Below, one piece after another: positions 53,802 to 63,273 of a stretch of DNA of 64,000 bases. Within the stretch, counting starts at the first letter, position 1; the number at the start of each line of letters is the position of its first letter. The notes beneath the pieces were generated by a model. It saw only the letters and a program-made list of their open reading frames with translations. It made no database searches and was not told the origin of the DNA. The DNA is from Lodderomyces elongisporus. Lineage: Eukaryota > Ascomycota > Pichiomycetes > Serinales > Debaryomycetaceae. The translations under genes and the position numbers were made by a program. The stretch covers positions 186,001 to 250,000 of the forward strand of contig NC_083678.1 of assembly GCF_030384665.1 (NCBI RefSeq), given 5' to 3'.

Positions 53802-56800
53802 CTATGCAAAGATTCCTTGGGTGATCAACTGGAACTGATCATACCATCTCGTGTAAAGACTATTCAAACTCTTATTTATAAGATACGTCTCTGCAAAAGC
53901 ATCAAGGTCGTCATCAGATAACTGTAGTTGAAGTCTTTGTTTCAACAATACACTTGTGTTATCTCCATTATTGAAACATGGTAAATTTGAATCCTTCTGC
54001 ATTAGTTCAACAATACTCACAATCTGTGTCCATTCTTTCCTCAAAACACGGAAACAATCTTTGAATACACTAACAAATGTTTGATAATGTTCAGACTCCA
54101 TACCTCCCAACAAATCAATGTATTCTGTGGTGAGTTTGAATGGTGCCGCTTCAAACCCGATATTTGAGCCTGGCGAATTACCCAAAAGAAAACCAAAATC
54201 GATATGAATGATGTGGCCTTCGTGGTCAATCATTATATTACCATTGTGACGATCTTTGATTTGCAAAACATAGCAAATAACAGAGTACGACGCAAGACTC
54301 GTTGCAAAATTTCCTTGGGCACGTCTATACGCACGACTCGAAGGTGGGCCAAAGAGTTTTTCAAAATAATCACGAAGCGTAAAGATTCTACCCTTGGAAT
54401 TCTCGCCACTTGCTATAGATAGTTCAGTTAACGATTTCTTTATCGAATGAATTGACATTGAGTTTGTGATTGTCTCAACTAGGCCCGCATTGGCACTTGT
54501 AATGAGAATTTTCATCTTTTTGGTCCAGAAATGGATACCATACTTTTTCCATATATTGGAGATCAAAATTATCAACTGACATGCAAATGCCTCCTGTGGC
54601 AAGTCATCTCCATTCTTAACAATAACACTGCATAGTTCCCAGTTCTTCAAGTGGCCATAGGCACTTGCCTTTCTAATACGCCGTTTCTTGGCCTCCCAAT
54701 CCTCACCAATTTTGAAATCATTTTCAAGTTTCCTTTGGCCTGCACCTTGTTCATCTGTTCTCAACTCCTTCATTTTCTCATAGTCAATACTTTCAAAACG
54801 GTCCTGAAGTGAAATCATTGAATCAATAATACGAGTTTTTATCGAAAGAAATTGTTGCGAGTTGGCCTGTCCTGAGTTCTCAAGTTGCTGAAGCATAAGT
54901 GATGCAATCCGCATTTGGTCAGCAAGGTACAGTGTTGTATCTGCCGCGTTTAAGGACTGTGGGGCAGCGGGTAAAGATCCAGACGCAATTGAATTACTGC
55001 CTCCGGGTGAAAAATTGCCCGATTGCGAACGACTACGATTCCCACTTATGACATGGGAATCAATAATTGATAACTCGCCCAAATCGGTTTCATCCAAGGG
55101 CAAAAATTTGCCATCATCACCACCAACACCAGCAATGAAAGAGCTTTGTGCATCTGAGGTTATTGATTCCTGATCAAAGTTATTGCTGTTATTAATAGTG
55201 TTGTTACTATTAATATTATTGATATTATTACCATTATCAATAGTCGTGTTGGCGGAAATATCTGGACTATTTTTACTTTCTCGTGATTGCAATTTCTCAG
55301 TGATCAATTTTTGATTATACTCGGTAAACGGGTTGAAATCAAATTCATCACTCAAGTACTCTATCAAAAGCAAATATGGGACACGTTCAGCAGAGTTCAA
55401 GACACACGCCTCGTTGATATTCAATCTCAAAATCTTGTGGAATTTTTTATTTCTATTGCTTGTATGAGGTAACAATTGCGGTATATCGATTTCCGAAGGC
55501 AAAATCGTATCGTTCAAAATTGACAACTCTGCCCTTAATGCAGAAACGCGTGCTGCCTTGGGTACCAGAGATAACCTCATCGAGATATCCTGTAGTGACA
55601 TCATAAACTCTGTTTGCTTTTTCGAATAGTTCACTCTAAGTATTTTTAGTAATTCCTGGTATGACTTGTTTGCAATTGCTGCTCTGCGTGGCCAACCCTT
55701 CGCCAGGTACGAGTCTGCAGAATATCTCACTTGGTTTACCAAATATTCAGACTCGGTCACTGGCAATTCAGGTCGCGACATGCTTCGTGTAAGATCAGGA
55801 AGAGATTGTGTTTGAACCTGCGAAGGACGATCAAGTCCACTTTGAGAATTAAGGGCTGCAGCCGCACCAGAGGTCCCAGAGGTCCCAGAAATACCAGAAA
55901 TACCAGAAGCACCGACACCGCCAAGACCTGCACCAGGTATTGACGAATGCAGATGCATAGCTTTGAGCGAGCGTCGTTTCTTCAATTTAATTGCAGTATT
56001 AATTTTAATCTGATCTTCGGCGATGGAAAATGCATGGTTTAGCGTTGAACTTCTAGGTCTATTGGATCTGGTATCTTCTTCATCCGTACCAACGCCTGTC
56101 TCCTCGGAATCATCCAGCAGATACTGGTTTGCCAATCGACGACTATTTGCCAATATCTCTTTCCCACTCAATACCGGCGAGGAGGATGAAGAGGATATTT
56201 GTATAGCCTCTTGGAGATCTTCCTTTGACAAGTTATCGCCAATAGCTTCTAAAGTTGATGTTGCTTGGTTTTTCATTGTCAAGTTCTTTGTAAGGGTCTT
56301 TTGGAAGTTTGCCAACTTGAATACAAGCGACCGCTGTTGTTTGCCCTGCGACTTGATCATTTTAGATATATAATTATTCAACGATGGCGTGGCAAATGAC
56401 GAAGCCACTGCTCCACACAAAACTAATGCAGGCAATGGGTTTTCCCGAAACTTGGGCTCTTTAACACTTGGAATGTCATAATTGAACAAAATATCCTGGA
56501 GTTTATTGATCAAATTCCGAACAATCTGGAAAGCATATGATGTCGGCTCGTTACGCAACTCAAAAAGAAATGCTTGTAGGACCCAAAACACAGTCAAGCT
56601 AAAGTGCGGGTATGATGCACAGTGGTCTAGTAGAAACTCTTCTAAGGCTACTGAGTCAGTCTCAAACATAACCAAGAGCTGGACGAATTGCGGAATGAAG
56701 AATTCAACCTCTTCATATGGGTATGAGTATAGCCTATTCACTAGTGCATGCAGCAATCCAATATTGGAGCAATGGATCCGCAATAGGTCAATACATTGTA

Positions 56801-61509: not shown

Positions 61510-63273
61510 ATGAGCATGAACACGCCGACATACGGAGTCACTCCTCCAATCTCACTAGCAAATCCCACTCCAAAGGATAATGAACTCAACGATCTTCTTA
61601 TCAAGGAGTTGAAACTTCGAGGTTCGTTTGAATCAGAGGCAGCAACACGTAAAAGAGTTAAAGTACTCAACACTTTGCAAAAACTCACAGAGACATTTGT
61701 CTACAATGTGTCACGAAGTAAAAACATGTCTGAAGCCATGGCTCGAGACGCAGGTGGGAAACTATTTACTTTCGGCTCCTATAGGTTGGGAGTATATGGT
61801 CCATCCTCAGATATTGATGCTTTGGTGGTATTTCCACGATATATCACACGTGAAGATTTTTTCACAGAGTTTGAGAAATTGTTAAGAGAAAGACCAGAAC
61901 TAGAAGAAATCAATAGTGTTCGAGAGGCATTTGTTCCGATTATCAAATTGGAATTTGACGGAATCTCGATTGATTTGATCTTTGCCAAATTGGATATCCC
62001 AAGGATTCCCAAGGACTTGACATTAACCGATAAAAATTTGCTCAAAAATATTGACGAAAAAGATTTGCGTGCTCTAAATGGTACAAGAGTTACAGATGAA
62101 ATTTTGAATTTGGTTCCTAAACCAACAGTGTTCAAGCATGCTTTGAGGTTTATCAAGATGTGGGCTCAGCAACGTGCCATATACGCCAACGTATATGGCT
62201 TCCCGGGTGGTGTTGCTTGGGCAATGCTCGTGGCAAGGATATGTCAACTATACCCAAATGCTGTGAGCTCATACATTGTTGAGAAATTCTTTCAAATATA
62301 TTCCCAATGGAGCTGGCCACAACCAGTGCTCTTGAAACAAATCGAAGATGGTCCTTTGCAGGTGCGAGTATGGAACCCCAAATTGTACTCTTTAGATCGC
62401 CAGCACCGAATGCCAGTTATCACGCCTGCATATCCATCAATGTGTGCAACGCATAACATCACCGCTTCAACTCAAAAAATTATTCTCGATGAGTTCCAAC
62501 GTGGTACTACGATAATGCATGGCATCTTGGACGGAACAAAGAACTGGCTGGATTTGCTACAACGTCATGATTTCTTCCATCGATATAAATTCTATTTGTG
62601 TGTAGTTGCAGCCACCAAATCAACATACGAAGAGCACCTCAAGTATAGTGGAATGTTTGAAAGTAAATTGAGATTGTTGGTTCAAAAATTGGAAATGGTG
62701 CCTGGAGTCGAGTTAGCCCACCCATATGTAAAGTCATTTGAGAATGGATACTACTGTGACTCTGAGGATCAAGTATTGAACTTGATTAATACGTATGGAA
62801 CGTTGAAAGGAGAGGAGCTTGCTTCACTGTTGAAATCAAGCAAGGAGAAGTCTGAAAGTTCCAATAATACCACTAATCAGCAGGATAATAATGCCAGTAC
62901 TAATATTAATGGAGACAATGAAAACCTTAACCAAGGCAACACCAACAGCGATACCACCAATGATGCCAAAATTGAGGTTAACTTAACAAAACTATACATC
63001 GGACTCAAGCTCTCGCTTCAAAAGGAAGGCGAAAAGACACTCGACATACAACACCCGTGTGCCGAGTTTTTCAACATTTGCAAGAGTTGGCCAGAATACG
63101 AAGTGGGTAAGCATTTTGTCCAAATCAAGAATGTCAAACTTTACGACTTGCTGAATGATGTATATGTTGAAGGCGAAACCAGACCCAAAAAAACTGTGAA
63201 ACGCAAGAGATTAGTGGCAAAAGATGACAGTAAAAAAAAGGCAAAGAGCGTTGAGGCCAACGGTACCGCATAA
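61510..63273 (+). CDS. PAP1: Poly(A) polymerase (MTL-linked PAP)
   Basis: A 587-residue nuclear enzyme that adds poly(A) tails to mRNA. The start is the ATG at 61510 ([19 protein letters not shown]); a few upstream in-frame codons begin with TTG, and a second ATG lies two codons on. The nucleotidyltransferase core has [20 protein letters not shown] with catalytic Asp101 and Asp103 and the third Asp155 in [10 protein letters not shown]. The central domain shows [21 protein letters not shown], and the RNA-binding domain holds [17 protein letters not shown]. An Asn/Thr-rich insert (about 455-485) and a basic C-terminus ([18 protein letters not shown]) follow. In Candida this is PAP of the MTL. 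In S. cerevisiae PAP1 (YKR002W) neighbours OSH6 (YKR003W), from memory, so the pair is ancient. Confidence 0.96.

Follow-up and report, generated by a model that had tools for sequence, protein, structure and literature searches.

The MTL locus of Lodderomyces elongisporus retains PIK1, OBP and PAP1 and contains no recognisable mating-type regulator

We analysed a window of 64 kb, corresponding to positions 186001-250000 of contig 6 (NC_083678.1) of Lodderomyces elongisporus. We conclude with high confidence that all four mating-type regulators (a1, a2, alpha1 and alpha2) are gone, that PIK1, OBP and PAP1 are intact, and that, since there is no regulator at the MTL, cell type cannot be set by this locus in L. 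elongisporus. The loss of the regulators in this species is already published and is not new, and Butler et al. in 2009 reportedly described its MTL region with PIK, OBP and PAP and without a regulator. The check on a gapless assembly narrows a loophole, namely that regulators were hidden in the gaps of the 2009 assembly, and a yeast described as sexual without a mating-type gene touches a real open question.

Gene content of the MTL locus

The genes of the locus, its flanks and the three gaps between the genes are as follows.

37857-40178, minus strand: cyclin gene of the MTL flank, named CCN1 in the earlier note; Pfam Cyclin_N/Cyclin_C
43071-44714, minus strand: CCT-type chaperonin gene of the MTL flank, named CCT7 in the earlier note; Pfam Cpn60_TCP1
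48325-50691, minus strand: RCY1-like gene of the MTL flank, named RCY1 in the earlier note; Pfam F-box and Sec10_HB
50855-53293, plus strand: gene with an 812-aa frame, equated with C. albicans orf19.3202 from its position alone
53294-53801: gap A, 508 bp, between the gene at the orf19.3202 position and PIK1; the interval probed by the published PCR
53802-56855, minus strand: PIK1, phosphatidylinositol 4-kinase; Pfam PI3_PI4_kinase and Pik1
56856-57774: gap B, 919 bp, between PIK1 and OBP
57775-59100, minus strand: OSH6/OBP, oxysterol-binding protein; Pfam Oxysterol_BP; 70% identity to C. orthopsilosis OBPa
59101-61509: gap C, 2409 bp, between OBP and PAP1, which are divergently oriented; contains short simple repeats
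61510-63273, plus strand: PAP1, poly(A) polymerase; three PAP Pfam domains

PIK1, OBP and PAP1 are intact open frames, and each encodes the Pfam domains expected of it. The three are neighbours and have the usual flanking genes, as in the Candida-clade MTL arrangement. The a1/a2 or alpha1/alpha2 genes that a Candida-clade MTL carries were not found at the locus. The earlier note had placed PIK1, OSH6/OBP and PAP1 together with the MTL flanks, which was borne out by the RCY1-like, chaperonin and cyclin genes being in place. It had also described two gaps of 0.9 and 2.4 kb; their sizes agree with gaps B and C, and the third gap, gap A, was left out. The 812-aa frame gave no Pfam match, and the true start may be downstream of its first ATG; orf19.3202 is described as adjoining PIKa (PMC5542550). 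Short simple repeats (TG, TCTTTTC and TTG) occur at 57134-57207 in gap B and at 60266-60459 in gap C. No Rfam family or tRNA was detected in the 64-kb window.

All 18 frames of the gaps (six frames of each of gaps A, B and C) were compared with Pfam at E values up to 1, and none gave a homeodomain, HMG or alpha-box match. The comparison returned 11 weak, unrelated matches, each under its own curated cut-off. A weak match to DUF3169 in gap A (E 3e-4; 20.9 bits against a cut-off of 31.6) was discounted, its frame having stops translated as residues. In gaps A, B and C the longest open frames measured 73, 80 and 108 codons, lengths that were reached by 47, 87 and 49 of 300 dinucleotide shuffles, respectively, indicating that the open frames of the gaps are no more than expected by chance. 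A scan of the six frames of the whole window for the core motifs of the homeodomain, HMG and alpha-box families gave no match; as a control, the motif patterns matched five of the seven homeodomain/HMG loci of the L. elongisporus genome and all four yeast a1/alpha1 proteins. By motif scan and ORF length only, no regulator was found in the stretch 3' of PAP1 (63274-63758). The Pfam comparison, the motif scan and the ORF lengths relative to the shuffles also gave no recognisable relic of a regulator gene in the gaps, and they uphold the earlier claim that no a1, a2, alpha1 or alpha2 is recognisable there.

A deletion would have removed the regulator genes, and the passenger genes PIK1, OBP and PAP1 would have been kept, most likely for housekeeping work. 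Sex genes still in use, if any, would run without the MTL switch.

Mating-type regulators in the whole assembly

The assembly (GCA_030384665.1) consists of 8 gapless PacBio contigs that total 16,086,460 bp (largest, 3,597,007; N50, 2,328,861), and it represents only the primary contigs of the diploid strain NRRL YB-4239 (PMC10586162). It was searched exon by exon with non-Candida queries, and only the best candidates were scored. The homeodomain profile gave three matches, and Homeobox_KN gave the same three proteins; none is MTL-like, and by sequence we take them to be relatives of YOX1/HOY1, PHO2/GRF10 and CUP9/TOS8. The HMG box gave six matches at E up to 1, four of them over the cut-off and none MTL-like by eye; they look like ordinary HMG proteins, namely NHP6, a repressor of the ROX1/RFG1 type and two others.

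Such proteins raise the possibility that mating identity is set by a substitute transcription factor, such as the HMG protein that resembles ROX1 or a homeodomain factor encoded outside the MTL. The candidates exist in the L. elongisporus genome, but they look like ordinary relatives of what we take to be known yeast regulators and nothing ties them to mating, and we regard this explanation as improbable. It is nonetheless in line with a review that raises a novel form of control as the alternative that would be required should sex take place (PMC3009590).

Neither PF04769 nor S. arboricola alpha1 as the query detected an alpha-box in the assembly, and no STE3 was found with Pfam or with S. 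cerevisiae Ste3. The Pfam models recognise S. cerevisiae a1, alpha2 and alpha1 (51, 36 and 51 bits, respectively) and Ste3 (310 bits). Because the 14 control genomes, none of them eukaryotic, also gave no match to the alpha-box and STE3 models, the empty answers for these two families are supportive, not final. In protein database searches aimed at Candida regulators, S. cerevisiae a1 and alpha1 as queries gave 23 and 13 proteins, of which the named relatives belonged to Saccharomyces or Vanderwaltozyma and one was unnamed; none was named as a Candida protein. A second copy of the MTL elsewhere in the assembly was considered and rejected: PAP1 gave a single match, which speaks against a second MTL or a silent cassette in the primary contigs. 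As in the NOMAT class, in which the genome lacks a1, a2, alpha1 and alpha2, none of the four was detected in the primary contigs by searches with non-Candida queries and non-eukaryotic controls. The coexistence of MATa and MATalpha genes in one genome, which defines primary homothallism, was not found either.

It could be argued that the regulators exist and were overlooked, because they lie on a second haplotype outside the assembly, have diverged or are interrupted by introns. The deposited sequence covers only the primary contigs of a diploid strain, the search ran exon by exon, and the alpha-box search matched no control genome, all of which would leave room for this. We nevertheless consider it very unlikely, as the homeodomain and HMG searches did pick up other family members in the same genome, and published experiments and surveys speak against it. 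In the PCR of the PIKa-orf19.3202 interval, the 933-bp empty-site product was obtained from 11 of 11 isolates, and PCR with degenerate primers was negative (Dogen et al. 2017, PMC5542550). The length of gap A fits this product, provided that each primer anneals ~200 bp into its gene. The same paper reports no a1, a2, alpha1 or alpha2 in the 11 isolates and cites the same result for the sequenced strain and seven further isolates (PMC5542550). L. elongisporus was placed in the NOMAT class with one other of 332 genomes (2/332), and a manual BLAST check of the NOMAT cases is stated (Krassowski et al. 2019, PMC6692504). The loss is also given in PMC3009590 and PMC2835752.

The absence of all four regulators that the earlier note described is thus supported at the locus and, within the limits of the searches, in the primary assembly. 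The note had named "the same loss" in L. elongisporus; the loss is indeed published for this species, but the window is L. elongisporus itself and does not represent a separate case. Its further statement, that mating identity has to be set elsewhere if it is set at all, follows from the absence of the regulators and agrees with the accounts in PMC6692504 and PMC3009590, the former of which calls cell-type control in L. elongisporus completely unknown.

Pheromone and meiosis genes

We examined the pheromone genes that remain in the assembly. STE2 gave one match, a 436-aa open frame (L013; 272 bits), and its product matches the solved structure of a pheromone alpha-factor receptor; the NCBIfam models, which cover bacteria and archaea, gave no match to it. 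Intact STE2 together with the lack of a detected STE3 gives the appearance of a one-sided pheromone system. Loss of the a-factor pheromone together with its receptor and transporter is described for L. elongisporus (PMC3199587). A pattern for the alpha-factor peptide gave 16 matches in the assembly, eight on each of two contigs, and the reversed control gave none. The matches lie in two genes.

L022, 364-1344 (contig C2): alpha-factor precursor gene with 8 repeats
L023, 347-1369 (contig C3): alpha-factor precursor gene with 8 repeats

The two open frames, of 326 and 340 codons, consist of a leader and KR-flanked repeats. The mature repeat is WMWTRYGRFSPV in 16 of 16 copies, and neither array contains variant units. 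Six of the 12 codons of the repeat vary, all at the third base, which amounts to at least nine changes, all of them synonymous. The silent share of random single changes is 19%, giving ~4e-7 for nine of nine, a figure that assumes an independence that array repeats lack. Across 115 aligned residues the two leaders share 63 (~55%), and 52 of the 115 aligned codons alter the amino acid. The repeats are identical while the leaders differ, so the peptide appears to have been held fixed as the leaders drifted. A literature search, with subscription papers and supplements outside its scope, found no report of two alpha-factor genes in L. elongisporus.

Meiosis genes were also found. SPO11 and DMC1 are present (L025 and L027). 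SPO11 matches the solved protein (E 5e-14), and the DMC1 stretch scored 432 bits to the best DMC1 chain versus at most 292.5 to any RAD51 chain. Relatives of SPO11 and DMC1 are kept in a yeast without mating-type regulators.

A pheromone gene and its matching receptor, both intact in one genome, are what autocrine selfing would need, and STE2 and the two alpha-factor genes provide them. Two-sex mating may have been abandoned, with each cell making alpha-factor and bearing Ste2, and the duplicated, strongly conserved alpha-factor might act through Ste2 as an autocrine trigger of selfing and of one-spored asci, so that a second sex and an MTL switch would both be dispensable. This reading, which is drawn from sequence, is possible but doubtful. 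It agrees with the intact STE2, with the 16 identical repeats and their exclusively synonymous changes, with the presence of SPO11 and DMC1, and with the loss of the a-factor half, STE3 not having been found here and the rest being reported in PMC3199587; in addition, Ste2 of L. elongisporus is reported to respond to its own peptide in S. cerevisiae (PMC5489263). On the other side, recombination can even out the repeats of an array, and their identity is not 16 independent facts; the constraint on alpha-factor may predate the loss of the MTL regulators; the presence of SPO11 and DMC1 is not in itself proof of meiosis; and a 2024 review, in its treatment of the species, sees no clear evidence of sex. 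If true, the reading would describe a sexual cycle that runs on a single pheromone and a single receptor, without mating types, and the two conserved alpha-factor genes and the one receptor offer a concrete, removable and testable target.

We rank as more likely than the autocrine loop, and put at about an even chance, that the species is asexual, that its one-spored asci arise with neither mating nor meiosis, and that the alpha-factor half is decaying late or has a non-mating use. All four regulators and the a-factor half are lost, an ascus with several spores is not reported in the account given by the 2024 review, and Fusarium oxysporum, an asexual fungus, is reported to signal to itself by pheromone in an autocrine manner (PMC13097639). 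Asexuality is harder to reconcile with an alpha-factor that is free of decay in all 16 repeats, with the intact STE2 and with the retention of SPO11 and DMC1.

Comparison with known systems

A tree was built from the window OBP and 24 chosen rows, taken from the 120 listed of 2039 found. The window OBP grouped with C. pseudojiufengensis, C. orthopsilosis OBPa, C. margitis and C. theae (99/95), and this group lay beside rows labelled OBPalpha (84/86), not beside C. viswanathii OBPa. An "a-type" origin of the passenger genes, for which the source is PMC5542550, was not confirmed by the tree. The position of the OBPa group beside the OBPalpha rows suggests that the a and alpha labels of OBP may not track one old split.

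Candida tropicalis keeps both pheromone halves. Its same-sex mating (PMC5957450) shares with the autocrine reading the idea of selfing without an opposite partner, but its cells are described as carrying MTLa/a or alpha/alpha, whereas no MTL regulator was found in L. elongisporus. The published MTL of L. elongisporus (PMC5542550) comes from the same species, type strain included, and consists of PIK, OBP and PAP without a regulator; the locus is no different from ours, and the present check differs by the later, gapless assembly. Within the NOMAT class, L. elongisporus is one of two members without an identifiable MAT gene in the genome, and the other, Candida sojae, is reported to lack several neighbours, including PAP1 and RCY1, both of which are present in L. 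elongisporus (PMC6692504). In Fusarium oxysporum, pheromone and receptor are read by the same organism outside mating, but, unlike L. elongisporus, this fungus has MAT loci, which serve as master regulators (PMC13097639).
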